64,000 bases of DNA from Comamonas sp. 26. Its GTDB lineage: Bacteria > Pseudomonadota > Gammaproteobacteria > Burkholderiales > Burkholderiaceae_C. The notes under the pieces were generated by a model. The model did not search any database, was not told the DNA's origin, and saw only the letters and a program-made list of their open reading frames with translations. Made by a program: the position numbers and the translations under genes. Shown here piece after piece: positions 36,898 to 62,778 of the stretch. The number at the start of each line of letters is the position of its first letter. Position 1 is the first letter of the stretch. Location of the stretch: NCBI RefSeq assembly GCF_002754475.1, contig NZ_PEFL01000001.1:1178001-1242000 (forward strand), in the 5' to 3' direction.

Positions 36898-37632
36898 TTA
36901 TTCAAACTGATCCCACAACGCCGCCTTGAACCAGGCCGGCATTTCATCGGTTTTCATTTCGATTTCCAGGCCATCGGTCACTTCGGCCACCCACACCCGC
37001 TCAGCCCCTGAGTTGTCGAATATGTAAGCTCGGTCAGCGTACGTCACGGCCTGCGGCAACAATTCCAGCGAGCGCACATAGCGGCTACGAATCTTGTCTT
37101 CCGCCACAGGATGCCCGCCAACTTGCACACGGTACTTGACCCGTGACACATTGATGTCGGCATCCTCCGTCGCCACAAAGTACAAGTAGGTGCGGTAGCC
37201 CGCCTGCTGCGCCTTCTGCAAAAACGCCACTTTGTCAGGCGATGACATCACGGTCTCAAATGTGAAAGATACCTTCGATACCAACAGCTTGTGCCGAATA
37301 AAGTCCGCCAGCACAGATGCCCAGTATGAATTGACCGCCACAGGCCCAAACACCACACGCCCATCAACCAAGGCCAACTGCGAGGCTTGGGCTAAAAGCC
37401 CAGCCTTTTTCAGCAGTGTTGATGCCAGCAAGAACGCTTGCAACTCTTGCGTATCCGCATCGACTTCAAACGCAGCCAAACTCAAGCAGCCGTCGGCACG
37501 GATGATTTTTTCAATTTCGTCTGCGTTGACGTAGATACCAAGCCACTGCGGCGGTAGCACGTCCTTGATCGTACTTTTTCCCGAACCATTCGGGCCTGCA
37601 AACATTCGCAGGCGAGGAACAGGAATCGTCAT
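36898..37632 (-). CDS. Zeta-toxin-like P-loop kinase
   Basis: A 244-residue P-loop protein with Walker A GPNGSGKST (13-21), followed by YVNADEIEK, the pattern of zeta toxins and related kinases. In known zeta toxins the enzyme phosphorylates UDP-N-acetylglucosamine and blocks cell-wall synthesis. The start overlaps the stop of the small upstream gene by four bases (ATGA), the usual antitoxin-toxin arrangement. The YRVQVGGHPVAEDKIRSRY segment is typical of the family. Target is inferred only. Confidence 0.85.
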   Translation of the reverse strand: MTIPVPRLRMFAGPNGSGKSTIKDVLPPQWLGIYVNADEIEKIIRADGCLSLAAFEVDADTQELQAFLLASTLLKKAGLLAQASQLALVDGRVVFGPVAVNSYWASVLADFIRHKLLVSKVSFTFETVMSSPDKVAFLQKAQQAGYRTYLYFVATEDADINVSRVKYRVQVGGHPVAEDKIRSRYVRSLELLPQAVTYADRAYIFDNSGAERVWVAEVTDGLEIEMKTDEMPAWFKAALWDQFE

Positions 37633-40668: not shown

Positions 40669-42915
40669 TCAAACCTTTTCAACCTCACAAATGAATCCAT
40701 GAGGTGTCCACACCAAAGAAAGCATCGGTAAGCCATTTCCTATTTCTGCAATTTTTCTAAGAGTTTGTCGATCAATGCCGGAATGACCCCCACCCATCGG
40801 GTGGCTATGCCAAGTCCCAACAAACATGAGGTGCCCTGCACTATCACTGTGTGCCTGTCGTAGCGCTTGAGCCAGCCCCTCTGTACCCAAAGTGAACTCG
40901 ACTGGGGAGCGCGTACTATCGGGGGGAGGCGCAATTAGCCCAGTCACCGTTACGGTACGGGTCTCATTGTTCACTCGGCCGACAAGAGCTCCGCCGGTTT
41001 CGAGTGCCCCCCATTTCCGCGCGTCTGCATCGATTGCACTGGCGACGTGATGAAGCACTCGAACCTCCCAGCCTGTTCTATCCTTTCGCGGTATTACTGT
41101 TGTTGGCGAAACGGTGCACTTACTCCACAGCAAGCCCAAGCCAGACGCATCCTCGATACCGATGCACAGTTCACCATCATCACTACAACCTTCAGACAGC
41201 CAATGTTCTATCTGAATGCTCATCGATGAGGCAGCCCTGGAAATCACCGAGTCGGGCATCGGCATGGTCAGAGAGCTGCAGTTGTCCCCTACAAAAAGTC
41301 GGGCTAGATTGCTTTCTCCACCTGTGATGGCCGATCTAACCGATGGGGTCCCTCTCGCAATCTCGAATGCCAATGCGTTTAGATCGTCTGCACGAGTTGT
41401 CCTTCCCTTGCCCTCACGAGTAAGTACCGCACAGCGACCAAAGGAATACAGCTGGGCGCGCACTACCCTTACTCCATGTTGATCCAACGGTTCACTTGTC
41501 GCCAGGGCTGCCAGTACTTGCAAGGATGCTGTCGAGTCAATGAGGAATGCCACATCTCCTTCAACCACCTCGCTAAATCGAGCTTCGCTCTTTAGCAGCA
41601 TGACGGCATTGTCGGAAGAAGATTTGACTTCATAATGGGAGAGTGCAGCCAACGCCTCCCGCATCATTTCAGCCTTGTTGCCATCGATTGCTGGGCTGTA
41701 TCTGAGTAGTGCGTGGCGCGCCAAGTTGTGCGGCGACATACGGTCGTTGTCAACAAGAGCAAGGCTTCCAAACCCAGCTCGTCCAAGGTGGAGTGCCAAC
41801 TTTGAGCCCAGGCTGCCAGCTCCTAAGAACACTATCTTTTTTGACAGATCTTTTGCACTTTTTCCGGACGCTTGTGCCAACAACTGAGAGGTTAGCGAGT
41901 GGCTATGAAAGGCTGGATGAGCTGTCGCCTCTCTCTGGAAAAGATCACTTGGATTTACGTTGAATCGAACTACATACGGCAGGACTTCAATGCGGCGTTC
42001 TGGAGCACCAATTAGGTGGGTTGGCCTCTCCACGAGCAGTATGACGATTACATAGAGACCCGCAGACCACGTTCTCGGATTTGCGTCTGACGCCCACACG
42101 CTATCTTGATAAACCTGCGCCAACTTTTGGTTTAACGCTTCGCTATCTACACCGGCAAGTCGCGCCCGCTCAAGCAAAGACGGAAGATCAACAACTGACT
42201 CCGGGTGATAAGTGGACACGACGTGTGCCCCATCAACTCTGACAGGCGCACGTACTGCCAAAACGGGACATATCCCCGCTTGAGTTTGTTGTTTGCCAAC
42301 AGTCTTGGTTTCCTGGCTGAACTTCAAACCTGGTGCAGATAGAATGCCCTCATCCAAGTAAGCGTAGATTCCATCTTCAATGCAGACATAGCCTGCCCCT
42401 GACTCGTAGATCTCTCCGGTTAACGGTGTTACGGCGATCAGCTTATCCGCGCTGGCAACAATGATTGAGGGGCAGCTGTCGCGGCGCGTGGGTTCCCAAC
42501 CTTGGGCTGGATCAATAAGGTACCCACCTGCCGCTTTGGTCAGCCAATCAATTATTTGGTCGATTACGGCATCGAGTCCGAGCCGGTGTAGCAACTCGTC
42601 GATGGATCCCTCAAAGATACAAGGATTGACTGGAGTGCCTGCAGCGCCTGGGTTGATATGCGGCAGATTTCGCGGAAAGTCGGGTCTCAAAAGAACCCGA
42701 GGTGACTGCATGGGCCAATTGCGGAACACCAGAGTGCAGGTCTCGACAGCACGAACCCCAGTTGCAGAAACTCCAAGCGCGATGGCCCGACTCGGAAGCT
42801 CAACGGGAATATCTACTTCAACTTGCACTAGGCCATCTGACTCAGAAGGGGCTCCAACCCGCGCGATGCCACGATGTTGTCTGAGTTGGTCAAGCGCGTC
42901 TTTAATCATGCGCAT
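40669..42915 (-). CDS. E2-E1-JAB triple-fusion protein (bacterial ubiquitin-like conjugation/deconjugation)
   Basis: A 748-residue protein with three parts. Residues 1-135 look like an E2-type fold with FPRNLPHINPG and a candidate catalytic Cys99 in VNPCIFEG. Residues about 355-560 are a ThiF/E1 adenylating domain with GAGSLGSK (365-372), LVDNDRMSPHNLARH (387-401) and a long C-terminal part. Residues 635-748 are a JAB/JAMM metallopeptidase with Glu639, HSHP (703-706), Ser712 and Asp715. Cap2 (E1-E2) and Cap3 (JAB) of type II CBASS do the same jobs as separate proteins. The start at 42915 or the ATG at 42909 (ATGA overlap with the MBL stop) couples it to the upstream MBL gene. Conjugation of some protein C-terminus to targets is inferred. 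Confidence 0.85.
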   Translation of the reverse strand: MRMIKDALDQLRQHRGIARVGAPSESDGLVQVEVDIPVELPSRAIALGVSATGVRAVETCTLVFRNWPMQSPRVLLRPDFPRNLPHINPGAAGTPVNPCIFEGSIDELLHRLGLDAVIDQIIDWLTKAAGGYLIDPAQGWEPTRRDSCPSIIVASADKLIAVTPLTGEIYESGAGYVCIEDGIYAYLDEGILSAPGLKFSQETKTVGKQQTQAGICPVLAVRAPVRVDGAHVVSTYHPESVVDLPSLLERARLAGVDSEALNQKLAQVYQDSVWASDANPRTWSAGLYVIVILLVERPTHLIGAPERRIEVLPYVVRFNVNPSDLFQREATAHPAFHSHSLTSQLLAQASGKSAKDLSKKIVFLGAGSLGSKLALHLGRAGFGSLALVDNDRMSPHNLARHALLRYSPAIDGNKAEMMREALAALSHYEVKSSSDNAVMLLKSEARFSEVVEGDVAFLIDSTASLQVLAALATSEPLDQHGVRVVRAQLYSFGRCAVLTREGKGRTTRADDLNALAFEIARGTPSVRSAITGGESNLARLFVGDNCSSLTMPMPDSVISRAASSMSIQIEHWLSEGCSDDGELCIGIEDASGLGLLWSKCTVSPTTVIPRKDRTGWEVRVLHHVASAIDADARKWGALETGGALVGRVNNETRTVTVTGLIAPPPDSTRSPVEFTLGTEGLAQALRQAHSDSAGHLMFVGTWHSHPMGGGHSGIDRQTLRKIAEIGNGLPMLSLVWTPHGFICEVEKV

Positions 42916-44099
42916 CCGTGCGGAAGAGGTGTGACTGCCGCAGACATCAGACCGGCGGCTTTGTATCCTGCCTCCTTCTTGCCGGGTTTAGACAGCCCCT
43001 GCGAAGTGACGGTAAAGATCATTGGTTCCACAGCATTTTCGGAGGGGTATTCCCCTGTGCACAGGAAACTTCCGCCTACGCCACTGGCAATGCTTTCGTA
43101 CTCTTCCTTTGCGCGGAAGCTCGGCGGATCGCACTCGTCATCTTTGATCGCTTTGCAGCTGGCCACGATGACTGCACCGGCGCGAGCCTGGGACAGCGCA
43201 TTTAGTGCGTCTGGGGCAACTTTGGCCTTATCTTTTTTCTCCGAAATACTATCTTCGGAAAGCGAGTGCCAAGAGCAATGGTGCGGCGTTTCCAGCAAGT
43301 CGTACTCCAGCACCTCCAGGTTGTGCTTGTGACGCTCCCACTGGCGTTTCCAGATAAATACCTCGGCATCTCCACCTGTTAGGAACTTGACACCATTGGG
43401 GGTGATCTCGTTGGCCGCCAAAGTAAAGTTGATGATCACGCTGGACTGGTTCTTGGCTAGACACTCTTCCACGGCCTCTTCATCACTAGCATCGAGGGGG
43501 GCGAGCAGATGTGCACTAAACCATTTAGATGCGGAGCCGTTGATGGTGCTGAAACTCTGATCGACCTTTCGGACGATTCCGCCGAGGTCATCGGTTTTCC
43601 CGTTGACATCTTCACCCATGATCTGGATGCGATCACCAGCCTCGCCGATCACCTTGCTCTCGCGGTAGAGCTTTACGCGGCGACGGGCCTCGGCACAAAT
43701 TGCTTTCGCATCTTCACAAAGCGTATGTTGGGTGCTTGCACGCCGGAAAACGATAGCGGAGGACCAGAGTTCGCGGATCACGATCTTCTTGTCCTTGTAG
43801 TCCTTTTCGTCGTCAGGGTATTCACTCAATGGCCCCAAGTAGAAGTGTCGGGTCACTCCTAGGCAATGATCTTCGTCAGGGTGGCTGATGAGAAAGGCGT
43901 CAACGTAAGGACGCCCTTTGTCATCCTTCTTGAGCTGTCCACGCAGGTCCTTAGCAACATCTCTGGTGCTGTCTTTTGGATCGTCTGCAGCTTGGCGAAT
44001 ACGCGCATCAATGAGCAAAGTAGTGGAGGCTACATCGCCAAAGCGGATCAGCGTCATGTCACCGTTGTCGACCGGGAAGAACGTCACTGTGGTTGGCAT
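42906..44099 (-). CDS. ComEC-like metallo-beta-lactamase-fold protein
   Basis: A 397-residue MBL-fold hydrolase. The metal motif is SHPDEDHC (His73, Asp75, Asp77, His78), the HxDxDH version seen in ComEC/Rec2-type domains. Later histidines include ETPHHCSWHS near 275. No signal peptide or membrane segment, so it is a cytosolic nuclease or phosphodiesterase candidate, and the likely effector or target of the conjugation system. It is first in the operon, and its stop overlaps the E2-E1-JAB start. The neighbour pairing of such fusions with MBL proteins has been described in comparative surveys of prokaryotic ubiquitin-like systems, as I recall. Confidence 0.82.
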   Translation of the reverse strand: MPTTVTFFPVDNGDMTLIRFGDVASTTLLIDARIRQAADDPKDSTRDVAKDLRGQLKKDDKGRPYVDAFLISHPDEDHCLGVTRHFYLGPLSEYPDDEKDYKDKKIVIRELWSSAIVFRRASTQHTLCEDAKAICAEARRRVKLYRESKVIGEAGDRIQIMGEDVNGKTDDLGGIVRKVDQSFSTINGSASKWFSAHLLAPLDASDEEAVEECLAKNQSSVIINFTLAANEITPNGVKFLTGGDAEVFIWKRQWERHKHNLEVLEYDLLETPHHCSWHSLSEDSISEKKDKAKVAPDALNALSQARAGAVIVASCKAIKDDECDPPSFRAKEEYESIASGVGGSFLCTGEYPSENAVEPMIFTVTSQGLSKPGKKEAGYKAAGLMSAAVTPLPHGCA

Positions 44100-44144
44100 A
44101 GCAAGTATTCCTTAGAAGCGAAAAATATGCATCCACTTCAGATG

Positions 44145-44165
44145 CGTATATTTAGTATACGTATA
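44145..44165. promoter_or_regulatory. Palindromic operator-like DNA between the MBL operon and the WYL regulator
   Basis: CGTATA-TTTAG-TATACG (44145-44161) is a perfect inverted repeat with a five-base spacer, and TATACGTATA (44156-44165) is a second overlapping palindrome. They sit in the 100-bp AT-rich gap between two divergent starts, where a WYL repressor would control both promoters. Confidence 0.65.
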
Positions 44166-44199
44166 TTTTTTTTATTCATCAATAAAGTAGACTCGTCCC

Positions 44200-45114
44200 A
44201 TGACTCCTGATCATGACCTATCAGAAACGCGCAACTCCAGCTCCCTAGAGCCCAAGATGGGCGGAGGGCAAGAGCGTCGGCTTCATTTCATCGACTTCCG
44301 TTTGCGGTGGGAGGGAAAGCTCAACCGCACTGACTTAACAGAGCAGTTCGGGGTGTCGACGCCACAGGCGTCTTTGGACATTAGTAAGTACAAGCTTCTC
44401 GCACCTGGAAATCTTGACTACGACGCAAGCTCCAAGACATATCTTGCGACATCAGCTTTTCGTGCTTTTTACTCGCTCAATTCAGCGAAACGTTTTCTCG
44501 CCGAAAACTTGGCCGTTGAGGCAGGGCTACTTGGGCGAGATGCCAGCTTTATTGGTACTCCACCCCCCTTGGATGCGGTCCCTTCACCTTGGCGAACGTT
44601 TGACGATCAGACGGTTGATTCTGTTGTACGAGCGATCCGCAAAAAGCTGTCTTTGCGTGTGAATTACCAGTCCATGAGTTCACCGGAGCCGAGCTGGCGC
44701 ACTTTGTCGCCTCATGCGCTTGGCTATGATGGATTTCGATGGCATGTGCGGGCCTTTTGTCACAAGCGAGAACGATTTGGCGATTTTGTTTTGGCGCGTT
44801 TGCTCAATACAGAGGAGCTTGGTTTTACAGAAGTTGATTTCGAGTTGGACAGTGGATGGCATACAAAGTTGACGCTGATTTTGGAGCCCCACCCGCAACT
44901 CACCGCTGCGCAAAAGCGCGTGGTAGAACTTGACTATTCGATGAAGAATGGCGAGGCGAGGTTCGAGTGCCGCCAAGCACTGCTCTTTTACACACTTCGA
45001 CGGCTCAATCTTCGCGAGCAAGATGAGCTAAGGATGAGTTCTATTGAACTGCAGGTTGTCTTAAAGAATCGCGAAGCTCTGCAAAAGTACATTTTGGAAG
45101 TCCAATCCACTTAG
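44200..45114 (+). CDS. WYL-domain transcriptional regulator (BrxR/CapW-like)
   Basis: A 304-residue regulator with an N-terminal winged helix (about 25-85, GKLNRTDLTEQFGVSTPQAS region), a WYL domain (about 150-225, VNYQSMSSPEPSWRTLSPH ... WHVRAFCH) and a C-terminal WCX-type extension. Proteins of this architecture repress CBASS, BREX and other defence operons until a nucleotide-type ligand or DNA damage signal appears. It is divergent from the MBL/E2-E1-JAB operon and only eight bases from the membrane protein gene that follows. Confidence 0.85.
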   Translation: MTPDHDLSETRNSSSLEPKMGGGQERRLHFIDFRLRWEGKLNRTDLTEQFGVSTPQASLDISKYKLLAPGNLDYDASSKTYLATSAFRAFYSLNSAKRFLAENLAVEAGLLGRDASFIGTPPPLDAVPSPWRTFDDQTVDSVVRAIRKKLSLRVNYQSMSSPEPSWRTLSPHALGYDGFRWHVRAFCHKRERFGDFVLARLLNTEELGFTEVDFELDSGWHTKLTLILEPHPQLTAAQKRVVELDYSMKNGEARFECRQALLFYTLRRLNLREQDELRMSSIELQVVLKNREALQKYILEVQST

Positions 45115-45122
45115 ATCATCCT

Positions 45123-45899
45123 ATGATTGATTTAATCAAAGATCCTTATGTGCGACAGGCACGCCTCTTTCCTGGGCTCATGGTATCCCTTCCTTTGCTA
45201 GTGCCTCTTGTATGCGTTTATGGAGCGCGTCATCCAGTGCTGACTGGCGTGGTGGCGCTACTCAGTGGGTGTGGTTCCTTGTGGGCATTGGCTAATGTCG
45301 CCAGAGGTCAAGGTAAGAAGCTAGAGGAGAGGCTAGTTAAAAAGTGGGGGGGAATGCCGACCACTATTGCACTTCGCCATAGGGAGAGAGGCTGGCTTGA
45401 TCGGGTCAGTAGAGTGCGCTACCACAATGAGATCGCGACCAAGTTGGGGATGCTCATGCCTTCTCCCGACGAGGAGGCAGCTGACCCTGAAAATGCTGAC
45501 GATATTTACATCGGCGCGGTGCGACGGATCCGGGAATTGACTCGAGGCCAGAAGACGCTTTTGCTCAAGGAAAACATTACTTATGGATATCACCGGAATA
45601 TGGTCGCGATGAAACCAATCGGGATACTGACCGCTATTTTGGGACTGGGGTATGGGCTAATCATTGCGAGAGTAGTTCAATTATCACCATTGACTATTTC
45701 TCTTGAACGCTTATCTGATCCTGGTTTGGCGGCTTCTCTGACGCTGCTAATTTCGTTAGCGTTGCTTGCTTCCTGGGTTTTCTATTTCAATGAAGAGAGC
45801 GTGCGCCGAGCTGGTGCCACGTATGCTGAGCGTCTCTTTGAATCCCTTTCATCACTTCCTGCAGCGCGTAAAAGGACACCTAAAACCCCGAAAACTTAA
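45123..45899 (+). CDS. Four-helix membrane protein of unknown function next to the WYL regulator
   Basis: A 258-residue protein with two predicted transmembrane helices near the N-terminus (16-34, 37-59), a cytosolic basic/acidic middle (60-160) and two more helices (165-185, 202-222), ending in a Lys/Pro tail. It begins eight bases after the WYL gene stop and so is probably co-transcribed. A membrane protein in a defence locus may be a pore-forming effector, but no known effector domain is recognised. Confidence 0.65.
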   Translation: MIDLIKDPYVRQARLFPGLMVSLPLLVPLVCVYGARHPVLTGVVALLSGCGSLWALANVARGQGKKLEERLVKKWGGMPTTIALRHRERGWLDRVSRVRYHNEIATKLGMLMPSPDEEAADPENADDIYIGAVRRIRELTRGQKTLLLKENITYGYHRNMVAMKPIGILTAILGLGYGLIIARVVQLSPLTISLERLSDPGLAASLTLLISLALLASWVFYFNEESVRRAGATYAERLFESLSSLPAARKRTPKTPKT

Positions 45900-48858: not shown

Positions 48859-50418
48859 ATGGCAACGACCATTGTTTCAGCCGATCCAGACTCATCACCA
48901 CTGCGCGCGGCGCAGTACGTGCGCATGTCTACGGATCACCAGCAGTATTCGACAGAAAACCAGGCTGACAAGATTCGAGAATACGCCGCCAGGCGCAATA
49001 TCGAAATCGTTAGCACCTACGCCGACGAGGGCAAGAGCGGTCTGCGCATCGATGGGCGCAAGGCGCTGCAAGAGTTGATCAAGGATGTTCAGTCCGGCAA
49101 GACTAATTTCCAGATCATTCTGGTCTATGACGTGAGCCGCTGGGGTCGCTTCCAAGATCCTGATGAGGGTGCTTATTACGAGTACATCTGCCGCAATGCC
49201 GGTATTGCGGTCGCTTACTGCGCAGAGCAGTTCGAGAACGATGGATCATCCGTTTCCAGCCTTTTCAAGACGGTCAAGCGCAGTATGGCCGGTGAATATA
49301 GCCGGGAATTGTCGACCAAGGTATTCGCGGGCCAGTGCCGCCTGATTGAGTTGGGCTTCCGCCAAGGTGGCCCTGCAGGTTACGGGTTGCGCCGCGCGTT
49401 GATCGATCAGACAGGAGCCCTCAAGGGTGAACTGGTGCGCGGAGAGCATAAAAGCCTGCAAACAGATCGCGTCATCCTCCAACCAGGGCCGGGTGCTGAA
49501 GTTGCCACCGTCAACCAGATCTACCACTGGTTTGTCGATGACAACCTGTCTGAATCAGAGATTGCAGAACGGCTCAATACCCAAGGAACTCTCACTGACC
49601 TGCAGCGCAGTTGGACGCGGGCCACGGTGCGTGAGGTGCTGTCCAACGAGAAGTACATCGGCAATAACATCTTCAATCGCCGCTCTTTCAAGCTCAAGCA
49701 GCTTCGTATCGTCAACTTACCGGAGCAGTGGGTGCGAAAAGACGGCGCATTCGAGGGCATCGTGTCACAGCCTCTGTTCTATACCGCGCAAGGTATTCTG
49801 CGTGAGCGGGCGCACCGATATACCAACGAAGAGTTGATCGACAAGCTGCGCGGACTGTATGAGCGGCACGGCTATCTCTCGGGGCTGATCATTGACGAAG
49901 CCGAAGGCGTGCCATCAGCAGCGTCCTACGCGCACCGCTTCGGTAGTCTGATTCGTGCTTACCAAACAGTCGGTTTCACGCCGGATCGGGACTACCAATA
50001 CCTTGAGGTCAATCAGTTTCTGCGTCGGCTGCACCCGGAAGTCGTTGGCGAGACCGAACGGATGATTACCGAAATCGGAGGCTCGGTCGAACGCGACCCT
50101 GCCTCCGACCTGTTGACGGTCAATCGTGAATTCACTGTCTCACTGGTGCTCACCCGGTGCCAGCAACTTGACAGCGGACGACGGCGGTGGAAGGTGCGTT
50201 TTGACACTACCCTCGCGCCGGACATCACTGTAGCTGTGCGCCTGAACGATAGCAACCAGACTGCGCTGGACTACTACCTGCTGCCGCGGCTGGATTTTGG
50301 CCAACCGCGAATCCATCTGGCAGAGCACAACAGCACTGAATTCGAGTGCTATCGCTTTGACAACTTGGACTATCTGTATGGGATGACCCGGCGCATGCGC
50401 ATCAGGAGAGTTGCATGA
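48859..50418 (+). CDS. Large serine recombinase
   Basis: A 519-residue serine recombinase. The resolvase catalytic domain is at about 15-165 with Ser24 as nucleophile (YVRMSTDHQQYS) and supporting residues in VYDVSRWGR. A Recombinase domain (about 185-310, PAGYGLRR ... NEKYIGNNIFNRR) follows, then a C-terminal region without the usual zinc ribbon. It could integrate, excise or invert the local element. The stop overlaps the next ATG by four bases (ATGA), so the three genes to 52210 form one operon. Confidence 0.9.
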   Translation: MATTIVSADPDSSPLRAAQYVRMSTDHQQYSTENQADKIREYAARRNIEIVSTYADEGKSGLRIDGRKALQELIKDVQSGKTNFQIILVYDVSRWGRFQDPDEGAYYEYICRNAGIAVAYCAEQFENDGSSVSSLFKTVKRSMAGEYSRELSTKVFAGQCRLIELGFRQGGPAGYGLRRALIDQTGALKGELVRGEHKSLQTDRVILQPGPGAEVATVNQIYHWFVDDNLSESEIAERLNTQGTLTDLQRSWTRATVREVLSNEKYIGNNIFNRRSFKLKQLRIVNLPEQWVRKDGAFEGIVSQPLFYTAQGILRERAHRYTNEELIDKLRGLYERHGYLSGLIIDEAEGVPSAASYAHRFGSLIRAYQTVGFTPDRDYQYLEVNQFLRRLHPEVVGETERMITEIGGSVERDPASDLLTVNREFTVSLVLTRCQQLDSGRRRWKVRFDTTLAPDITVAVRLNDSNQTALDYYLLPRLDFGQPRIHLAEHNSTEFECYRFDNLDYLYGMTRRMRIRRVA

Positions 50419-51332
50419 ACCCAAGCAAAGAATACCGTAAGGCGGAGCTTCGGATGATTCCGCTGGATCGCATCGAAGTGCTCAATCCCCGCGAGCGCAA
50501 CAGCCGCGTTTTTGATCAGATCGTCGGCAACATTCAGAGCATAGGTTTGAAGAAGCCCATCATCGTGACGCCCCGTCCCGGCAGCCATGGAGAGCACTAC
50601 TTGCTCATCTGTGGTGAGGGGCGGTTCAAAGCCTTCAAGACCCTGGGCCAACAGGAAATACCAGCCATGGTAATGCAGGTCGACGATGAATCAGCCTTCA
50701 TCATGAGCTTGACGGAAAACATTGCTCGCCGCAAATTCAGCCCGCTAGAACTAATGGCGGGGATTGGGCAGTTGCGGGAGCAAGGCTACGACAGGCAAAC
50801 CATCGCCAAGAAAACTGGTCTGAGTGCGGAATACGTCAAAGACATTTTGTATCTGCTCCAGCACGGTGAAGAGCGGCTTCTCATGGCCGTAGGCAGCGGG
50901 CGAATTCCTCTAAATGCGGCCATGGCCATTGCCGGCGCGGGCGATGACAAAGCAGTTCAGGAAGCCCTGCAGGAAGCCTATGAGTCGGGGCAGCTACGTG
51001 GCAACCACCTGATCCAGGCGCGGCGCGTGAACGAGCGCCGCCGGGTTCAAGGGAAAGCAGCCGTCGGCCCCGGTACCGGCTCTGCGCCGCGCAAACCTAT
51101 TGAAGGCGTTACCACATCGAGTCTGGTGCGCAACTACCAACGTGAAGTCGAACGCCAGAAACAAATGGTCAGAAAAGCGGAAGTCGCCCAGCACAGCCTG
51201 TTGTTCATCGCCGGCGGCTTGCGACAGTTGCTAGGAGACGAAAATTTCGTGAACCTACTGCGCGCCGAAGGGTTAGGCACCTTACCGCAGTACCTGGCCG
51301 ATCGCGTCTGGAAGAAAGGCAAAGGAGTATGA
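50415..51332 (+). CDS. ParB/RepB-like protein 1
   Basis: A 305-residue protein with a ParB N-terminal (Srx-fold) domain (about 10-100: PLDRIEVLNPRERN, ICGEGRFKAFKTLGQQEIPA, TENIARRKFSPLELM) and a helix-turn-helix (about 120-150, QTIAKKTGLSAEYVKDIL). A RepB-type C-terminal region follows. No ParA lies nearby. It is coupled to the recombinase and to the second ParB-like gene by ATGA overlaps, so it probably serves DNA recognition for recombination rather than plasmid partition. Confidence 0.85.
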   Translation: MNPSKEYRKAELRMIPLDRIEVLNPRERNSRVFDQIVGNIQSIGLKKPIIVTPRPGSHGEHYLLICGEGRFKAFKTLGQQEIPAMVMQVDDESAFIMSLTENIARRKFSPLELMAGIGQLREQGYDRQTIAKKTGLSAEYVKDILYLLQHGEERLLMAVGSGRIPLNAAMAIAGAGDDKAVQEALQEAYESGQLRGNHLIQARRVNERRRVQGKAAVGPGTGSAPRKPIEGVTTSSLVRNYQREVERQKQMVRKAEVAQHSLLFIAGGLRQLLGDENFVNLLRAEGLGTLPQYLADRVWKKGKGV

Positions 51333-52210
51333 GCAAGAAGCCCCCTTTAGGCTTCATTCCCGAGCCACTCCTTCTACCGCTGTCTGCCATCCTGCCATTG
51401 CGCAAAAACCCAGCAGGGCTGCAGACGTCTCGAAAATTCAAGCAGATCATCGCCTCCATTGAGGCCGTGGGCCTGATTGAGCCACTGTCTGTCGGTAAAC
51501 CCAACCGGGCAGGACAGTACATCCTGCTAGACGGACATACTCGCCTGGTGGCGCTGATGCAACTGGGCTTCGACAAAGCTCCATGCTTGGTGGCCATTGA
51601 TGACGAAAGCTACACCTACAACAACCAGCTCAATCGACTCTCCTCGATTCAGGAGCACGTCATGATCCGACGCGCCGTTGAACGCGGCGTGTCCCCAGAA
51701 AAACTAGCCATAGCTTTAGATGTGGACATCAGTCACATCATCAAGAAGCTGAACTTGCTGGATGGCATCTGCCCCGAAGCGGTCGAGTTGCTGCGCGACC
51801 AGAATTTCTCACCCAATCTGGGAGCGGTTCTCCGAAAGCTCAAACCCACACGGCAGATCGAATGTGTGGAATTGATGATCAGCGCCAACAACATCACTGT
51901 CGCCTACGCTCAGGCCCTGGTGGCAGCCACACCTAGCAATATGCTCGTCGGCGAAATCAAGACAAGAAAGGTGACCGGAGTCAGTTCTGAGCAAATGTCG
52001 AAGATGGAGTGGGAAATGGGCAACCTTCAAGAACAATTCAAGCTCGCTGAGCAGTCATATAGCCAGGACGTGCTCAATCTGGTACTGGCCAAAGGCTACC
52101 TAGCGAAGCTCATGGCGAATGAGGCCGTCCTGCGGTATTTGACCAAACACCACAACGACATGTTCAACGAATTCGATCGCATCGTGCGCATGAAGAATCT
52201 GGACAAGTGA
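51329..52210 (+). CDS. ParB/RepB-like protein 2
   Basis: A 293-residue paralogue-like companion of the preceding protein. The ParB box is LLDGHTRLVALMQLGFD (about 65-82) and a helix-turn-helix segment is near 115-140 (PEKLAIALDVDISHIIKKLN). It is clearly diverged from protein 1 rather than a recent copy. Translation is coupled by ATGA overlap. It closes the recombinase operon. Confidence 0.82.
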   Translation: MSKKPPLGFIPEPLLLPLSAILPLRKNPAGLQTSRKFKQIIASIEAVGLIEPLSVGKPNRAGQYILLDGHTRLVALMQLGFDKAPCLVAIDDESYTYNNQLNRLSSIQEHVMIRRAVERGVSPEKLAIALDVDISHIIKKLNLLDGICPEAVELLRDQNFSPNLGAVLRKLKPTRQIECVELMISANNITVAYAQALVAATPSNMLVGEIKTRKVTGVSSEQMSKMEWEMGNLQEQFKLAEQSYSQDVLNLVLAKGYLAKLMANEAVLRYLTKHHNDMFNEFDRIVRMKNLDK

Positions 52211-52303
52211 CCGGCCCTTCTTCAGGTGATCAGTGCCTGAACATCGCCGGAGCATTACCGTCCATTGCGCCTTGCCTGAGATGCGTGGAGGGAGTGTCCT
52301 CCA

Positions 52304-53926
52304 TCAATCCAATGGCAGCGCCTTCGGCTTGCAGGCGGCCATGCTGCTTTTATTGTGGCTGGCTATGGTATTCATGGCTCCCAGCAAGCCCGCGTTCTTG
52401 CCTTTGAAGTCCATCCAGCCTTGCTGCCAAAGGGCTTGAAAAAGCTTGCTGGCCTCGTCGGCACCCGCGCCCACCCCTTGGATCATGATCGGGTGCATGA
52501 AACTCAGCTGTACTCTTGATCCTTCCGTTTTCAGCTTAGCGATGTTGGCTTTGATTGCCGAAGCATAGCGCTGCGCCAGTTCCTCATGCAATTGCTGCAC
52601 GCTGTCTCGGGAGGCGTTCGTGAACAAGCGCTGCATGGTGATGACTTTGAAGTCGCCGTCGCTATCGGTCTGCACTGCCACAGTAGTCGCATAGCCTGAC
52701 TTGCTTTCGTAATAGCCTTCGAGGCGGAACGCACCGCAAAACCTCGGCTTGGTTTTGGCCATCAGCTTGGGCAAGCCCTGGTCAAAGTTCAGGCTTGACC
52801 CCGTCGCGAATCCCATGGGGTTCGCTTTGATGTTCACGGTACCTCGAAACCCTTCCTTTCGATTCACCGGCTGGGGCACAAAGTACATGGCTAGCGCCAC
52901 GGTATCGGCATTGCGTTTACCTCCGAGTGCCTGCTCTGCCAATTCGTATGCCTGAACCAGATGGAATAGGTTTTTGAGCAGTTGATCACGCCCTGAGTTA
53001 TAGGATGTGGGCCACGTCATTGCTTCCTTCTCAAGGCCCTCCTTGTCGCCCTTACGGTACAAGGCTTCCATGCGCTTGAAACTTTCCTCAGCATTTGGAG
53101 GCAAAGTGCCGTGCAGAGTGAGGCCAGAGCGCAATTGTTCACCCAAAGTCAACACAGGCTCAAAAGGTGCGTTCAAGGTCTGAATGGATGCTCCCAGGCA
53201 AATTCCATCAATGCAAAGCGGCGGCAAAGCAGCAGCAGCTTCAGAAGTAGAAGCTGCTCCCGTGGTGATGGCGGCTCTTTGCGCGCCAGCTTGTGCAACA
53301 GTTCTCCCATCGACGCTGACGGGGGGTGTTGCAGCTGACAACGAAGGTGATGCATTAGGAGGCACCGCTTGCCCCGCTCGCACCACGTTGTTACGTGCAG
53401 CTGGCTTTCCGCCGGGTTCTATGGTCACCTGCTCAACACCCACAGCTGGTTTTGAAGCAGTGTTCACAACCTTGGTAGTCGAAATGGGCACCGTGGACTG
53501 AGGCATTGCAGCAGGCTGCGCTGAAGCAGCTACTGGCGCTGGCTTGCGCGTGGCACCTGCCAATGCAGCCTTGTCATAGAGCAACTTCAAGCGGATTGCG
53601 TGCACATCCCCTGTGCTGGTCGCAACACGCAGCACCTTCACGGCCCCCCTGGCAGGTGGAAACTTGCGCAAATCAACGACCCAATGCTCGCCTAGATCAT
53701 CAAAGGGAATGTCGGGTGTCAGCACCGTGTACATGTAGAGCGACGGATGGGGGCTACTGACGCTACACAGTTCAGTGTCCGGGTTTTGGCACTCGGCGTA
53801 GTAGTTATAGACGTTTGACTCCAGCTGGGTGCCGCTGCGAACGCCTACAGGCTGTGCCCAAGCGCCCAGAGCAAGCCCCAACACTCCCACTGCTGTGCAC
53901 CAGCGCATTCCCTCTCTCACTACCAT
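52304..53926 (-). CDS. Large exported protein of unknown function
   Basis: A 540-residue protein with a signal peptide cleaved near AWA-QP (residue 25). The N-terminal 100 residues look globular and Cys-containing (YAECQNPDTELCS). A low-complexity Ala/Ser/Pro/Thr/Val linker of about 110 residues follows, then a C-terminal domain (about 235-540) that starts at CIDGICLGASIQTL and includes FCGAFRLEGYYESKSGY. ATG 53926 has AAGGA upstream; ATG 53908 is an alternative. No family is recognised. It is divergent from the XRE gene and shares its operator region. Confidence 0.7.
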   Translation of the reverse strand: MVVREGMRWCTAVGVLGLALGAWAQPVGVRSGTQLESNVYNYYAECQNPDTELCSVSSPHPSLYMYTVLTPDIPFDDLGEHWVVDLRKFPPARGAVKVLRVATSTGDVHAIRLKLLYDKAALAGATRKPAPVAASAQPAAMPQSTVPISTTKVVNTASKPAVGVEQVTIEPGGKPAARNNVVRAGQAVPPNASPSLSAATPPVSVDGRTVAQAGAQRAAITTGAASTSEAAAALPPLCIDGICLGASIQTLNAPFEPVLTLGEQLRSGLTLHGTLPPNAEESFKRMEALYRKGDKEGLEKEAMTWPTSYNSGRDQLLKNLFHLVQAYELAEQALGGKRNADTVALAMYFVPQPVNRKEGFRGTVNIKANPMGFATGSSLNFDQGLPKLMAKTKPRFCGAFRLEGYYESKSGYATTVAVQTDSDGDFKVITMQRLFTNASRDSVQQLHEELAQRYASAIKANIAKLKTEGSRVQLSFMHPIMIQGVGAGADEASKLFQALWQQGWMDFKGKNAGLLGAMNTIASHNKSSMAACKPKALPLD

Positions 53927-53975
53927 GCTTTGTCCTTCTTATTGAGCTGAGCAACCGCATCGCGCCACAGCATAA

Positions 53976-53990
53976 CTACGTAACTCGTAG
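53976..53990. promoter_or_regulatory. XRE operator copy 1
   Basis: CTACG-TAACT-CGTAG, a perfect 5-bp inverted repeat with five-base spacer, between the XRE gene and the divergent exported protein gene. It matches copy 2 exactly in both half sites. Confidence 0.8.
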
Positions 53991-54009
53991 TATCGAGAAT
54001 AAAGCATAA

Positions 54010-54024
54010 CTACGAATCTCGTAG
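54010..54024. promoter_or_regulatory. XRE operator copy 2
   Basis: CTACG-AATCT-CGTAG, same half sites as copy 1, 34 bp centre to centre (about three helical turns). It lies 17 bp upstream of the XRE start, fitting autoregulation. CATAACTACG is also repeated directly in front of both. Confidence 0.8.
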
Positions 54025-54041
54025 CCTTTTGAAGGTGCGAG

Positions 54042-54368
54042 ATGTCCGACGCGGATGAACAATGGGGCGCGAGGCTCAAACAGGCCCGCTTGGCTGCGGG
54101 GCTGTCGCAAAAGATGCTGGGGATTGAGGCGGGAATCGATGCGTTCGTAGCCAGCACGCGCATCAATCGCTATGAACTTGGCATCCACAAGCCAGACTTG
54201 CTGACGGTGCGGAAGTTGGCTGAGGTGCTGAAGGTGCCGATGGCGTTTTTCTACGCCGACACGGACGATGAAATTGCTGAACTGTTGTTCAAGTACAGCA
54301 AGGCTGGTGACGAAGTCCGTCTGAAGATTCAAACGCTTCTTGCTAACCAGCCTTCGCAGAGTACTTAA
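54042..54368 (+). CDS. XRE-family helix-turn-helix regulator
   Basis: A 108-residue regulator with the HTH at about 10-65 (LKQARLAAGLSQKMLGIEAG ... KPDLLTVRKLAEVLKVP) and a short C-terminal helix for dimerisation. GAAGG precedes the ATG. Two identical palindromic operators lie just upstream. Its 3' end overlaps the 3' end of the convergent res gene by four bases, so it may be a control element of the restriction locus or of the exported protein. Confidence 0.88.
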   Translation: MSDADEQWGARLKQARLAAGLSQKMLGIEAGIDAFVASTRINRYELGIHKPDLLTVRKLAEVLKVPMAFFYADTDDEIAELLFKYSKAGDEVRLKIQTLLANQPSQST

Positions 54369-57300
54369 GCCGAAGTACCTTCGACAAGATGGGCGCGCTC
54401 AATAAGACCATCCACGTCTTTGAACTTGCCGTAAATTGCCGGGTTTTCGTCGACAGCTAAAGCTTCAAAGTGCGCGGCCCCGCACTTGATCTTGCCACCC
54501 TCACGGTCGCGCAGGTCATCCTCAAACAGGCTGCTTTTCGTTTCAACAACGAAGTACAAACGCTCTTGGCCATCGCGTTCAATCAGCACGGCCCAGTCAG
54601 GGTTGTAAGTTCCCAAGGGTGTGGGCACCTTGAACCAGCCGGGTAGCTTGGCATAGACTTTCACGGCCTCGTTTTTCTCTAAGGTTTCAGCAAAGTCACG
54701 TTCAACGGCAGAGTCATAGACCACGTGCTGATAAACGGACTTTTGTGTGTCCTGCACCAAGTTCTTCAGGTAGCCCGTTAGCTCTTCGGTTTCAAACAGC
54801 TCCTGGGCGTAGTAGTCGTCGTCGCCCAGCCGCTGGTACTTGATGCCATCCACCAAGGCCAAACGTTTGCAGCGGTTGATGGCATCGGCCGTCAATTCAA
54901 TGAATTGCTGCGGATTGCGCTTGAACTCCTGCAGGCGAGTGCTTTCGGTGAGGATGTATGCAATCGTTTTACGTGTCAGCTGGGTACGATCCTGCAACTC
55001 GGTCAGCACATCAGGCAATTCGATGTCGTTTTCATCAATTGCGACAGGGCTGGAAACTGCCACCTCCGATGCATCCACCCCCGCTTTGGTGATGGACATT
55101 TCAGCCTTTTTCCAGAGCAGGCGCGTCTTGGCCACAGGGGGCATGTCATTCAAAGCATCAATGCATTTTTTGATCAACAGGGCATTGTCAAATTGCACAC
55201 GGTAGGTGGTCTTGTGCTTGATGCGATCCCACAGCGCCTTGAATTCTGGGCTCACAAGGACCGACTTGCGCACGGGAACAGTCTTGCGCTCATCTGCATC
55301 TTTGATCTCCAGCTTGCCGGTGATCTTTTTCAGCACAGCGGCAATTTGATCTTTTTGTGCAGTGAACTCTTCGGGCAGTACCAAGGTACCTTCCTTTAGG
55401 GCGGTGCGCAGGGTGTCCTGCACCTTGCCTTTGCTGTCGATGTAGCCTTGTGACTTCAAATGCGCCCACAGCGCCTTGGATGCATCAAACCCCAAGGGAG
55501 CCACATTGCCGTTTTCCTGGCCTACGCCAATGCCTGCGAACTCATGGTCTTTGACAATGCCAAACTGAATCCCCGTGTCTTTTTCAATGTCGCGCTGCAG
55601 GTTTTCGGCAAACTGCTCGTAGCTCTCGGTCGCAATCACCGTCAAGGTGTTGACCTCAAAGCCACGCAAGCGCTCGCCCTTTTGGTTCACGCACAGGCGC
55701 AGGCCACGGCCAATGGTCTGACGGCGCCAGCGCTCCGTATCGCGGGTGGAGAAATTGCAGATTTGAAAGACGTTCGGGTTGTCCCAGCCTTCTTTCAGTG
55801 CCGAGTGCGAAAAGATGAATTTCAGTGGCGATGAAAAGCTCAGCAGCTTTTCCTTGTCACGCATGATCAGGCTGTAGGTGTCGTCATCCGCGGCGGTGCT
55901 GCCGCTGGTGTCCTTCACCACCTCCACCGTTTTGCCACCAATTTTTTTCTTGTCGATGGAGAAGTAGCCGTTGTGCACCTCGCTGGCCGCTGCCGACAGG
56001 TCCACTTCTGCAAACAGGCTTTGGTAGTCCGGGTGCTTGGCCAGGCGTTTGTACTCTTCCTCAAACATCAAGGCGTACTCGCCTTTGACAGCGTTGCCCT
56101 GTTCGTCGTACTGGCGATACTTGGCCACTTCATCGATAAAGAACAGGCTCAGCACCTTCACGCCCAAGGGACGCAGGCGTTTCTCTTTGTCCAGGTGCTC
56201 TTTGATAGTGCGGGCAATCATGGCGCGCTGCACGGCCCTGGGGTCTACATCGCCCCAAGCCTCGCCCACACGCAAGAACTCTTCACCACCAGGCACTTTC
56301 AGCTCAACGAACTGATCCGCCTTGGCTGCACGAATTTCGCCAATGCGCACATTGGCGTAAAGCGGGCGGCCTGTCTCTTGTTCTAGGTCGAAGCCATCTT
56401 GCACCGTGATCGTTTCGCGCCGCACAGCGCCTGCGGCGTTCTCGCGGTCCACTTCAATGCTGGCAGTAATGACGCCTTTTTTGTTGGCCACGGTCAGCAG
56501 CTTCACATAAGGTTTGTTGCTTCCACCTTGCACGGTGGCTGCAGCTACCTCAATTTGCTTGACCAGCTTTTGCTCATACGCATCCACCGCATCCAGCCGG
56601 TACACCATGTTGTGCTTGTCCACATGGGTGGCTGAATAACGCAGCGTGCACAACGGGTCCATGTGTGCCAAGGCTTTTTTGCCCTTGCCGTCCATGCCGC
56701 CATCCACACTTTGCGGCTCATCCACGATCAAGATGGGGCGCGTGCTGCGGATCAGGTCAATCGGGCGCTCACCGCCCGTTTTCTCGCTGGCGCGGTACAT
56801 CTTGTTCTTTGACTTTTCGCGGCGCTTGGCTTCATCAGATTCTTCTGCGGCAGCGGCTGCTTCATCCCCAAACTTGTTGATGGCACCCACGGTGATGACC
56901 ATGATTTGAATATTGGGGCTGGTTGCAAAATTGCGCACCTCACCTAAGCGGTCTGAGTTGTACTGAAAGAACTCATAGCCTTTGGCTCCGGGGTACAAGC
57001 CTTCAAAGTGCTCGCGGGTGATCTGCAGGGTTTTGTTCACCCCTTCCTTGATGGCCACCGACGGCACAACCACCACAAACTTGGTAAAGCCGTAGCGCTC
57101 GTTCAGCTCAAATACCGTGCGCAGGTACACATAGGTTTTGCCCGTGCCGGTTTCCATTTCTACGGTGAAGTCCAGTGCCTGCTTAGGGTTTAGCTTGGCA
57201 GATGGCGGCACGCCATTGCGCAACTGCACTTTTTGCAGGTTTTCAGAAATTTCAATGTCCGGCAGCAGCTTCAAGGCGTTGCCCACGCCACCGCTGTCTG

Positions 57301-57460
57301 AGAACTGCTTGCCTTCAAAGCTGCGCTGCTGGTCGTCTGTGGCTACAGGGGCAGCCACCGAAAAAACCGAATGAAAAACCTCCTGCCCACGAAATAGATC
57401 GCATACGGCATCCATCGCTGCTTTTTGGTAGGGAAGGTCAGATTCAAAATGCAGTTTCAT
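54365..57460 (-). CDS. Type III restriction endonuclease, Res subunit
   Basis: A 1031-residue ATP-dependent restriction subunit. The helicase core has METGTGKT (102-109, Walker A) and VDEPQ near 248 (a DExx box), followed by later motifs such as QTIGRGLRLCVN. The C-terminal PD-(D/E)xK nuclease region shows NPDWAVLI ... YFVVETKSS near 955-985. It cuts DNA after meeting two unmethylated sites in the head-to-head arrangement typical of type III systems. Coupled by a four-base overlap to the RhuM-like gene upstream. Confidence 0.93.
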   Translation of the reverse strand: MKLHFESDLPYQKAAMDAVCDLFRGQEVFHSVFSVAAPVATDDQQRSFEGKQFSDSGGVGNALKLLPDIEISENLQKVQLRNGVPPSAKLNPKQALDFTVEMETGTGKTYVYLRTVFELNERYGFTKFVVVVPSVAIKEGVNKTLQITREHFEGLYPGAKGYEFFQYNSDRLGEVRNFATSPNIQIMVITVGAINKFGDEAAAAAEESDEAKRREKSKNKMYRASEKTGGERPIDLIRSTRPILIVDEPQSVDGGMDGKGKKALAHMDPLCTLRYSATHVDKHNMVYRLDAVDAYEQKLVKQIEVAAATVQGGSNKPYVKLLTVANKKGVITASIEVDRENAAGAVRRETITVQDGFDLEQETGRPLYANVRIGEIRAAKADQFVELKVPGGEEFLRVGEAWGDVDPRAVQRAMIARTIKEHLDKEKRLRPLGVKVLSLFFIDEVAKYRQYDEQGNAVKGEYALMFEEEYKRLAKHPDYQSLFAEVDLSAAASEVHNGYFSIDKKKIGGKTVEVVKDTSGSTAADDDTYSLIMRDKEKLLSFSSPLKFIFSHSALKEGWDNPNVFQICNFSTRDTERWRRQTIGRGLRLCVNQKGERLRGFEVNTLTVIATESYEQFAENLQRDIEKDTGIQFGIVKDHEFAGIGVGQENGNVAPLGFDASKALWAHLKSQGYIDSKGKVQDTLRTALKEGTLVLPEEFTAQKDQIAAVLKKITGKLEIKDADERKTVPVRKSVLVSPEFKALWDRIKHKTTYRVQFDNALLIKKCIDALNDMPPVAKTRLLWKKAEMSITKAGVDASEVAVSSPVAIDENDIELPDVLTELQDRTQLTRKTIAYILTESTRLQEFKRNPQQFIELTADAINRCKRLALVDGIKYQRLGDDDYYAQELFETEELTGYLKNLVQDTQKSVYQHVVYDSAVERDFAETLEKNEAVKVYAKLPGWFKVPTPLGTYNPDWAVLIERDGQERLYFVVETKSSLFEDDLRDREGGKIKCGAAHFEALAVDENPAIYGKFKDVDGLIERAHLVEGTSA

Positions 57461-58503
57461 GGATTTTTTTTGCGTTGTGTGGTGCTGGGTGGCATATCGT
57501 TTGACAGGAGCGCTTTGCTGACGTTGATCAAGGCGTTCATTGCATCAGCCTCTCCCTGCTGCTCAAGCATGGCACGGCGCTGCTCAGCAAATTTTTCATA
57601 CTCGGCCAATGCTTTGGCATCGGCCTGCTTTTTGGTCACTTTGCCGGCATCCGACAACACTTGCCGGTCGTTGAATTGCAGGAATGCGTCCAGCTTGGCA
57701 GTCCAGTCGGACAAAAACACTTGCTTGCGGCGCAAGGCTTGGTCTTCTGCAAAGTCAAGCCACATCACCACAATGCGGTTAAGTTCGCTGATTTCTGTTT
57801 CTGTCAGATAGTTCTTGGCCACGGTCACATCGGCCTTGGTCAGCCATTGGCCTTTCCAAGTGGCCAAGCCCATATTGGGCTGCGCGGCATCCACACGGTC
57901 ACGAATGATTTCAGCGGCTGTTTTGCCAGTCACTGCAAAGTGCAGCTTGTTTTGGATGATGCGGAAAAACGTAGTGGTTTCGGGCAAGGAGGGCTCGTAA
58001 TCTGCGGCCATGGCGAAAATTTCGCGCACCCGCAAATACATGCGCCGCTCGCTGGCGCGAATGTCTCGCACCCGCTCCAGCAGTTGGGCAAAGTAGTCGG
58101 GCACCACTGACCCAGCCACAGGCGGGTTCTTTAGCCGTTCATCATCCAGCACAAAGCCCTTGACGATGAACTCCTTCAACTGGGCATTGGCCCACTGCCG
58201 AAAGCGCACGCCAGCCTGGCTGCGCACTCGGAAGCCCAGGGCCAGCACCATCTCTAGGTTGTAGTGCGCTACCTCGTAGCTTTTGCCATCTGCGGCAGTT
58301 GTTCGGTAAAACCGAACAACTGAAGCTTCGTGCAATTCACCATCTTCAAAAATGTGCTTGATGTGCTCGCTGATCGTACCTTTAGCTTTGCCAAACAGCT
58401 CAGTCAGCTGCTTTTGGCTTAGCCACAGATCTTCATTGTCCAGCAGCACGGAAAGCTGGGCTTTGCCGTCTTCAGCTTGGTAAATCAAGAACTCGCTCAT
58501 CAC
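57457..58503 (-). CDS. RhuM-family protein inserted in the type III RM operon
   Basis: A 348-residue RhuM-family protein (SEFLIYQAEDGKAQLSVLLD, WLSQKQLTELFGKAKGTISEHI, YNLEMVLALGFRVRSQAGVRFRQWAN). These proteins are frequent in mobile islands and beside restriction genes. The N-terminal part looks like a helix-turn-helix DNA-binding domain. It overlaps both mod upstream and res downstream by four bases, so it is an integral gene of the operon. A role as an RM modulator is only a guess. Confidence 0.85.
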   Translation of the reverse strand: MMSEFLIYQAEDGKAQLSVLLDNEDLWLSQKQLTELFGKAKGTISEHIKHIFEDGELHEASVVRFYRTTAADGKSYEVAHYNLEMVLALGFRVRSQAGVRFRQWANAQLKEFIVKGFVLDDERLKNPPVAGSVVPDYFAQLLERVRDIRASERRMYLRVREIFAMAADYEPSLPETTTFFRIIQNKLHFAVTGKTAAEIIRDRVDAAQPNMGLATWKGQWLTKADVTVAKNYLTETEISELNRIVVMWLDFAEDQALRRKQVFLSDWTAKLDAFLQFNDRQVLSDAGKVTKKQADAKALAEYEKFAEQRRAMLEQQGEADAMNALINVSKALLSNDMPPSTTQRKKNP

Positions 58504-60425: not shown

Positions 60426-60500
60426 AGGAATTGCTCAAATTTTGGGGAGCTTGTTGGCTGCGTCATATCTTGGTGCGAAGTCAGCAAGTTTTAATCAGCA

Positions 60501-60592
60501 AAAAAGATAGCTGGAAGCGCTTGTTTGGCTTGTGTTTTGACTGCTTTTTTCTTTTAAAGCAAATGTAGTTTTACGCAAACAGCTATCTTTTT
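60501..60592. repeat. GATAGCTG-type repeat with 13-bp inverted ends, upstream of mod
   Basis: AAAAAGATAGCTG (60501-60513) is the exact reverse complement of CAGCTATCTTTTT (60580-60592). The left side continues GAAGCGCTTG, matching the dispersed repeat core. It occupies about half of the 207-bp mod promoter region and looks like a small mobile or REP-like element. Confidence 0.7.
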
Positions 60593-60632
60593 AGGTTTTC
60601 ATAAGGTGCTGCAGAGGTGGACAGCAACTGGG

Positions 60633-62771: not shown

Positions 62772-62778
62772 TTTTCCC

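Follow-up and report, generated by a model that had tools for sequence, protein, structure and literature searches.

A 6A-MBL anti-phage locus of Comamonas sp. 26 whose metallo-beta-lactamase-fold hydrolase is probably itself the ubiquitin-like modifier

Bil and Bub are bacterial conjugation systems of the E1/E2/JAB type that operate in phage defence. Their parts are encoded by separate genes, and beta-grasp ubiquitin-like proteins are used by them. Both systems are named in a paper which also reports WYL-domain (CapW) and CapH plus CapP regulators at Bub operons and expands CapW as 'CBASS-associated protein, WYL domain' (PMC13373217). In the type II cyclic-oligonucleotide-based anti-phage signalling system (CBASS), the cGAS/DncV-like nucleotidyltransferase (CD-NTase) keeps its C-terminal Gly/Ala only where Cap2 and Cap3 are full-length, and the requirement of this residue for conjugation was proven by mutation (PMC10097602). 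According to a 2025 review, no ubiquitin-like transferase system other than Cap2 was then known to act on a protein without the beta-grasp fold, though further such systems may exist (PMC12355090). Another layout, the type 6a operon of Iyer, Burroughs and Aravind (2006), consists of an E2-E1-JAB protein and a specialised metallo-beta-lactamase (MBL), usually encoded as two genes (PMC1779556). The present study deals with such a pair in Comamonas sp. 26. A stretch of 64,000 nucleotides (nt) from contig NZ_PEFL01000001.1, called the window below, carries an E2-E1-JAB fusion gene beside an MBL gene. From sequence comparison, we conclude with good confidence that the pair probably forms a defence cassette of the 6A-MBL type whose hydrolase, the MBL, doubles as the ubiquitin-like modifier.

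All coordinates are positions in the window. The relatives used for comparison are 45 linked pairs of an MBL gene and a fusion gene, the window's own pair being counted. The genes of the pair and the parts of the fusion are as follows.

42906-44099, minus strand: MBL-fold hydrolase gene, 397 aa, ComEC-like, proposed enzyme and modifier (NF058524)
40669-42915, minus strand: E2-E1-JAB triple fusion gene, 748 codons, likely start 42909 giving 746 aa (NF058523, Pfam)
42448-42903, minus strand: E2-like domain, Pfam Prok-E2_A, residues 5-156, catalytic Cys99 at 42619-42621 (E 3.6e-36)
41638-41844, minus strand: E1/ThiF core, residues 358-426, with G365, G367, D389, R400 and K414 (Pfam ThiF, 1.7e-13)
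41278-41280, minus strand: Cys546, likely the E1 cysteine, beyond the ThiF core match (identical in 45/45)
40708-41046, minus strand: JAB/JAMM peptidase, Prok-JAB residues 624-736, with E639, H703, H705, S712 and D715 (1.4e-9)

The MBL gene lies upstream, and the coupling of the two genes stated in the first-pass annotation of this stretch is evident from their reading frames, which share 10 nt, or 4 nt (ATGA) with the second in-frame ATG at 42909. The start at 42909 is more likely than that at 42915 because the protein-database copy of the fusion (P0121) has 746 aa. The triple fusion in one polypeptide, also recognised at that stage, is borne out by Pfam, with Prok-E2_A, ThiF and Prok-JAB following one another along the chain, and by the curated NCBIfam equivalog models (release 20.0 of June 2026). 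The fusion scored 549.7 bits against NF058523 ('anti-phage 6A-MBL system' cap2_3, cut-off 320), and the MBL protein scored 416.9 bits against NF058524 ('anti-phage 6A-MBL system' MBL, cut-off 220). With both scores above the cut-offs, the window pair is, by these models, a member of the already named 6A-MBL anti-phage family, and the kind of system is not new; the model names give no mechanism. The pair had been assigned to a type of fusion predicted in earlier surveys. This is right, since the type 6a operon of 2006 has the same layout, with E2, E1 and JAB in this order in one chain beside an MBL (PMC1779556), but it has to be added that NCBI has by now named the system and built equivalog models for it. 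In the available part of the type 6a description there is no mention of three features dealt with below, namely the tail of the MBL, the WYL gene and the membrane protein. NCBI's name may imply earlier work, possibly with a published mechanism. In the literature searched, which missed most subscription papers and preprints, neither the publication behind the name nor any proposal that the MBL acts as a modifier was found.

The catalytic residues of the fusion are fully conserved. In a full-length alignment, the residues singled out in the first-pass annotation (Cys99, G365, G367, H703 and H705) are identical in all 45 linked pairs, and so are D389, R400, K414, Cys546, E639, S712 and D715. Both Cap2-type catalytic cysteines, Cys99 and Cys546, are thereby kept throughout. 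The roles given to single residues are those that they have in these families. At the level of sequence, the Prok-E2_A match together with the invariant cysteine suggests that the N-terminal domain is of the E2 type. Among solved structures, Cap2 (7tsq/7to3) was the closest match, to the E1 part only (profile E 2.6e-15), and a BubCD chain matched the same part weakly. The closest profile match of the JAB part was the solved JAB peptidase 9ild (E 5.6e-12).

The locus resembles type II CBASS in the Cap2 match of its E1 part, the position of E2 ahead of E1, the presence of JAB, and a large enzyme outside the beta-grasp fold whose C-terminal Gly is matched to E1-E2. On the other hand, this enzyme is an MBL in place of CD-NTase, E2, E1 and JAB form one chain, and many tails are extended past the Gly. 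No CD-NTase was found by Pfam, PADLOC or NCBIfam among ten open reading frames (ORFs) from 36.9 to 47.7 kb. The earlier description as Cap2/Cap3-like without CD-NTase therefore agrees with the scan of the neighbourhood, and a filing as CBASS was rejected. Unlike Bil and Bub, the locus has no separate gene for a beta-grasp ubiquitin-like protein among the ORFs scanned: neither the eight neighbours examined nor ten small ORFs (39.3-47.0 kb) gave a match to a ubiquitin-like family, the rest of the genome not being searched.

The MBL protein had been called ComEC-like, and this holds at the sequence level, the best solved match of its profile being the ComEC-type 'Competence protein' 9ic4 (E 7.1e-9). 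Across the linked pairs the MBL bodies share 28-70% identity with that of the window. The metal motifs H-x-[DH]-x-DH and HH are each present in 45/45 pairs, and the strict GGD motif in 33/45, the window included. The metal-binding motifs are intact, and the MBL protein is a putative ComEC-like hydrolase, a nuclease or another.

The key feature of the MBL protein is its C-terminus, which was read from the DNA and from relatives:

42915-42929, minus strand: C-terminal motif P-L-P-H-G, MBL residues 391-395, with Gly395 as the proposed conjugation residue (DNA reading and relatives)
42909-42914, minus strand: two-residue extension Cys-Ala after Gly395, proposed substrate of JAB trimming (DNA reading)

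A search with the MBL protein gave 2718 relatives over the threshold, and the tail statistics were taken from the 120 listed. His-Gly (HG) followed by 0-6 residues ends 118 of these 120, and the two exceptions (380 and 350 aa) stop short of the tail. The extension after the Gly has no residue in 45 of the 118, one in 5, two in 65, three in 2 and six in 1, so that 73/118 of these close relatives carry extra residues. When the alignment was anchored on the Gly, P(-4), H(-1) and G(0) were identical in all 118 listed relatives that reach the tail; the residues after the Gly are variable, the following two positions dropping to 1.9 and 1.5 bits. Among the 45 linked pairs, 25 tails are of the HG class, 15 of the RAG class and 3 of the YG class, and the other two (L089 and L098) contain Gly in another context. 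HG, RAG or YG plus 0-6 residues accordingly forms the tail in 43/45 pairs; 17 of these 43 end exactly at the Gly, and a Gly lies within the final seven residues in 45/45. Since the classes were set post hoc and the protein ends are rich in Ala, Gly and Ser, with Gly being common there, the exact motif and not the mere presence of Gly carries the weight. Odd tails were also seen (VGFGSGFQ, GGGGYA, VTQG, KPWGSDCS and KPWAC; L089, L093, L098, P0338, P0339 and P0353). These could represent additional tail codes, in some of which Ala replaces Gly.

A ribosome-binding or overlap artefact was considered as the origin of the motif. All four Gly codons are used for the conserved tail Gly (GGC 17, GGT 13, GGA 7, GGG 6), and the candidate partner starts are scattered around the MBL stop, the earliest about 26 nt ahead of it and the latest 17 nt past it, the choice of start being uncertain at several loci. 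Because of these codons and variable starts, the tail motif is not regarded as a by-product of a ribosome site and the artefact is not supported, though extensions do go with overlap: a 4-nt gene overlap occurs at 19/26 loci with extended tails.

The pairing of the fusion with the MBL, the absence of which from other genomes would have spoken against the first-pass annotation, is conserved in other genomes. From the MBL side, 14 distinct genomes with an over-cut-off MBL were obtained from three draws (399, 398 and 369 genomes, some shared between draws), and an E2-E1-JAB gene stands beside the MBL in 14/14, one pair being interrupted by a transposase-like ORF. From the fusion side, an over-cut-off fusion was found in 5/300 genomes, with the MBL beside it in 4/5. 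The fifth (L068, 4637-6283) is an N-terminally incomplete ORF on a short contig, with no MBL in the preceding 1.2 kb. In a genome contig collection an MBL match lies upstream at 11/12 fusion loci, and at the twelfth, L009, the match begins at base 5 of the stretch.

The 45 linked pairs were what remained after several loci had been left out. L009 lacks upstream sequence and L011 is partial; L057 has no partner, and in L058 the partner is interrupted. L067 consists of remnants, L068 has an incomplete fusion and no MBL, and L081 has a short MBL with a remnant of the partner. L083-L086 duplicate L087-L090 in shorter form, and in L093 the partner is split over two ORFs, the tail of its MBL being GGGGYA. 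L013-L056 are outside the count, being shorter stretches of loci that are present again in longer form or other ThiF genes. Near copies were kept (L001/L002/L004, L066/L070/L094, L064/L087, L069/L082 and L060/L078/L080).

Two sets of MBL proteins served as negative controls. Among other MBL-type ORFs near linked pairs, the tail motif was found in 0/8; seven of these were hand-picked and one, near L089, was found by the metal motif, those of L070 and L094 are near copies, and the one of L064 lacks the metal motif and was judged an MBL by eye. The second set is the L057 MBL (L057, 5215-6456) with its 15 closest full-length relatives among those listed (clade P0242-P0257; names seen were Nitrosomonadales and Candidatus Nitrotoga), in which the motif was found in 0/16. 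No fusion gene is present in the surroundings of the L057 MBL, and none over the cut-off in its genome. The MBLs of this clade end in unrelated sequence where relatives carry the YG tail. The 120 relatives listed in the L057 search comprise its own 16-member clade and 104 others. Of the latter, 80 have YG and 13 have HG as the tail motif, with 0-6 residues after it. A late Gly of another kind is present in 3 and absent from 8, and several of these are fragments, two of which belong to the L057 clade. The NCBI cut-off for the MBL (220) was dropped as a divider between linked and unlinked MBLs, with the linked but contig-cut L090 scoring 214.9 bits and the unlinked L057 212.5 bits.

Tail class was then compared with the phylogeny of each partner. 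On the E2-E1-JAB tree, a single branch (support 95) sets all 25 HG systems apart from the rest, and another (support 99) does so for all 15 RAG systems; 4 tail-class changes are needed where the least possible is 3. On the MBL tree, built with the tail left out, six RAG systems group with HG MBLs, nine stand far off behind a fully supported long branch, and 6 changes are needed over all rows. In the approximately unbiased (AU) test, the seven-row partner clade is rejected on the MBL data (p-AU 3.8e-54), and on the partner data neither the far nine (7.5e-6) nor the window-like MBL clade (4.65e-63) survives; the groups were chosen after the trees had been seen, and the trees are quick trees. From so strong a conflict between the trees we conclude that MBL bodies were re-paired with conjugating enzymes in evolution, and the tail class goes with the enzyme. 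A comparison of HG and RAG partners gave a single column (L676 versus R) that passed the 90% specificity rule.

Because the conserved Gly tail follows the E2-E1-JAB clade and is absent from the controls, the MBL is the probable modifier, as CD-NTase is in type II CBASS. For the same reason, the earlier statement that no separate ubiquitin-like protein exists, which agrees with the ORFs scanned, is probably only formally true: the MBL, with its conserved and sometimes extended Gly tail, probably fills this role. The sequences show the conservation half of the CBASS-type argument, namely the parts, the catalytic residues, the Gly tail, the clade match and the absence in controls.

Several points weigh against the MBL as the modifier. 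The tail classes were defined after the data had been inspected, several of the 45 linked pairs are near copies, and the extensions may be a by-product of the gene overlap seen at 19/26 of the extended tails. In the L057 search, 11 of the 104 other listed relatives are without HG or YG ends, several of them fragments, and the linkage of the tail-less clade is known for L057 alone, two fragmentary members being left uncounted. Without the two longest branches (L089 and L090), the number of changes falls to the minimum of 3 on either tree, and the MBL tree is compatible with one origin of RAG (p-AU 0.145). Repeated independent tail swaps on the MBL tree were therefore dropped as a claim and the tree discordance alone was kept; independent swaps may number just one. 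Since the tail codons adjoin the partner gene, physical linkage alone could explain the co-inheritance.

This last point leads to the other explanations of the tail. The tail and the partner could be inherited as one recombination block, the Gly serving otherwise, for example in a JAB-dependent maturation trimming of the MBL. Such a block would fit the overlapping or almost touching genes at the loci examined, the small number of tail changes, and an MBL tree on which one origin of RAG is not rejected. Yet the Gly is retained over MBL bodies of 28-70% identity with all four Gly codons in use, and 17/43 classified tails end at the Gly and leave nothing to trim, which makes this explanation quite unlikely in our judgement. 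The clade match by itself would be given equally by a docking peptide. The MBL could then be an ordinary effector whose tail is a docking site for the fusion protein, for the membrane protein or for the WYL regulator, and the modifier would be an unlinked host ubiquitin-like protein; ThiS/MoaD-type proteins are present in many genomes. A docking peptide, however, needs neither a Gly at or within six residues of the C-terminus nor variable residues beyond it, and no ubiquitin-like family was seen in the eight neighbouring or ten small ORFs, the search having stopped short of the rest of the genome. We regard this explanation as unlikely. Very unlikely, finally, is that the MBL is the target and not the tag, with E2 joining something else to MBL lysines and JAB removing it. 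The complete E1-E2-JAB module would suit this, and a modification of the MBL in addition is compatible with the data, but the Gly-ended tail is left unexplained and no tag gene was found among the ORFs scanned.

Outside the pair, a divergent regulator and a membrane protein are encoded next to the MBL gene:

44100-44199, no strand: divergent promoter region, AT-rich, with ATATACG-type repeats, putative WYL operator (sequence reading)
44200-45114, plus strand: divergent WYL-domain regulator, probably CapW-like (Pfam WYL, 3.1e-13)
45123-45899, plus strand: membrane protein, 258 aa, beside the WYL gene, candidate effector or partner (about 4 helices, by hydropathy only)

A WYL gene was detected by hidden Markov model at 21/45 linked loci, the window included, and at L098 additionally by annotation; L073 and L076 have helix-turn-helix and ImmA/IrrE genes in its place. 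The ATATACG-type repeats are a possible WYL operator. The membrane protein gave no Pfam, PADLOC or NCBIfam family over the cut-off, its one NCBIfam match being far below it (E 0.012). Its homologs occur at 18 of the other 44 linked loci, or 19/45 with the window (L001-L004, L008, L010, L059, L060, L062, L070, L073, L078, L080, L092 and L094-L097). At 7 of these loci the gene is a neighbour of WYL (broken into two pieces in L070), and at 12 it follows the 3' end of the fusion gene. At five loci an annotated patatin phospholipase stands beside or behind the fusion (L074, L075, L076, L077 and L098); in L074 it lies on the other strand, in L077 it is set one gene farther off, and it was Pfam-checked for two loci. 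Patatin-like ORFs were also recognised by eye at L065, L088 and the interrupted L058, and patatin neighbours occur in distant branches of the 6A-MBL system. Patatins are a known CBASS effector class, and their presence at some relatives' loci is a further likeness to CBASS. Given the linkage of these genes to the fusion loci, the membrane or phospholipase gene would often be the effector or its partner, with the MBL in the place of CD-NTase. The statement in the first-pass annotation that the locus has no effector is therefore doubtful. PDC-M48, a candidate system of PADLOC, is a two-gene pair of a membrane protein and an MBL and is not known to include E2-E1-JAB. Matches to its models lie at L006 (4966-5475, PDC-M48A, membrane by hydropathy) and L094 (9492-10562, PDC-M48B, MBL), and these neighbours hint at an exchangeable module. 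The second MBLs near linked pairs differ from the MBL of the pair in having no Gly tail.

Farther away, the stretch 48859-63989 is rich in defence genes. It has a serine recombinase, two RepB/ParB-like genes, RhuM, a type III restriction-like system (54365-57460), a methylase (58500-60425) and a GmrSD-type endonuclease (60633-62771). On the opposite flank lies a Zeta-toxin-like ORF (36898-37632, minus strand; Pfam 2.1e-8).

For the MBL as modifier, the following course of events is proposed. As with other WYL regulators, the WYL protein would repress the cassette until infection or damage. The MBL would be made with a tail ending in PLPHG-CA, from which the JAB domain would trim CA. By analogy with Cap2, the E1 domain would adenylate Gly395 and hand it over via Cys546 to Cys99 of the E2 domain, and E2 would join the whole, intact MBL to an amine on a target. 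Conjugation would switch on or place the hydrolase activity of the MBL, the linked membrane protein, or patatin in other versions, would perhaps act as a membrane-damaging effector, and JAB would reverse the bond between MBL and target. If the Gly is the active residue, the extended tails need trimming, and therefore the JAB in the same chain is the obvious agent. Because the JAB residues are equally conserved in systems without an extension, JAB should have another role, most simply deconjugation. With moderate confidence, we favour a system with a catalytically active metallo-hydrolase as the modifier, HG, RAG and YG tail codes matched to clades, trimming by the enzyme chain itself, and effectors that can be exchanged between membrane proteins and phospholipases.

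Members of the family are fairly widespread. MBL relatives are present in 250 of 72,556 plasmid records, of which 127 are from Klebsiella and 141 are predicted to be conjugative. The two Enterobacterales copies that were read, L069 and L082 (Citrobacter, E. coli), are RAG-tailed and have a WYL gene. Among 5,426 complete E. coli genomes, the gene pair of one E. coli plasmid has a match in 31, and in 29 the match covers 80% of its length or more. Three MBL loci were found in IMG/VR, and the phage records searched gave no match.

The locus is a concrete second candidate after Cap2 for a transferase system acting on a non-beta-grasp protein, with an exact residue, Gly395, to which the proposal is tied. 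If the proposal is true, the MBL would be the second non-beta-grasp enzyme, after CD-NTase, to be conjugated through its own C-terminal Gly, and the use of entire enzymes as tags would be more widespread among bacteria.

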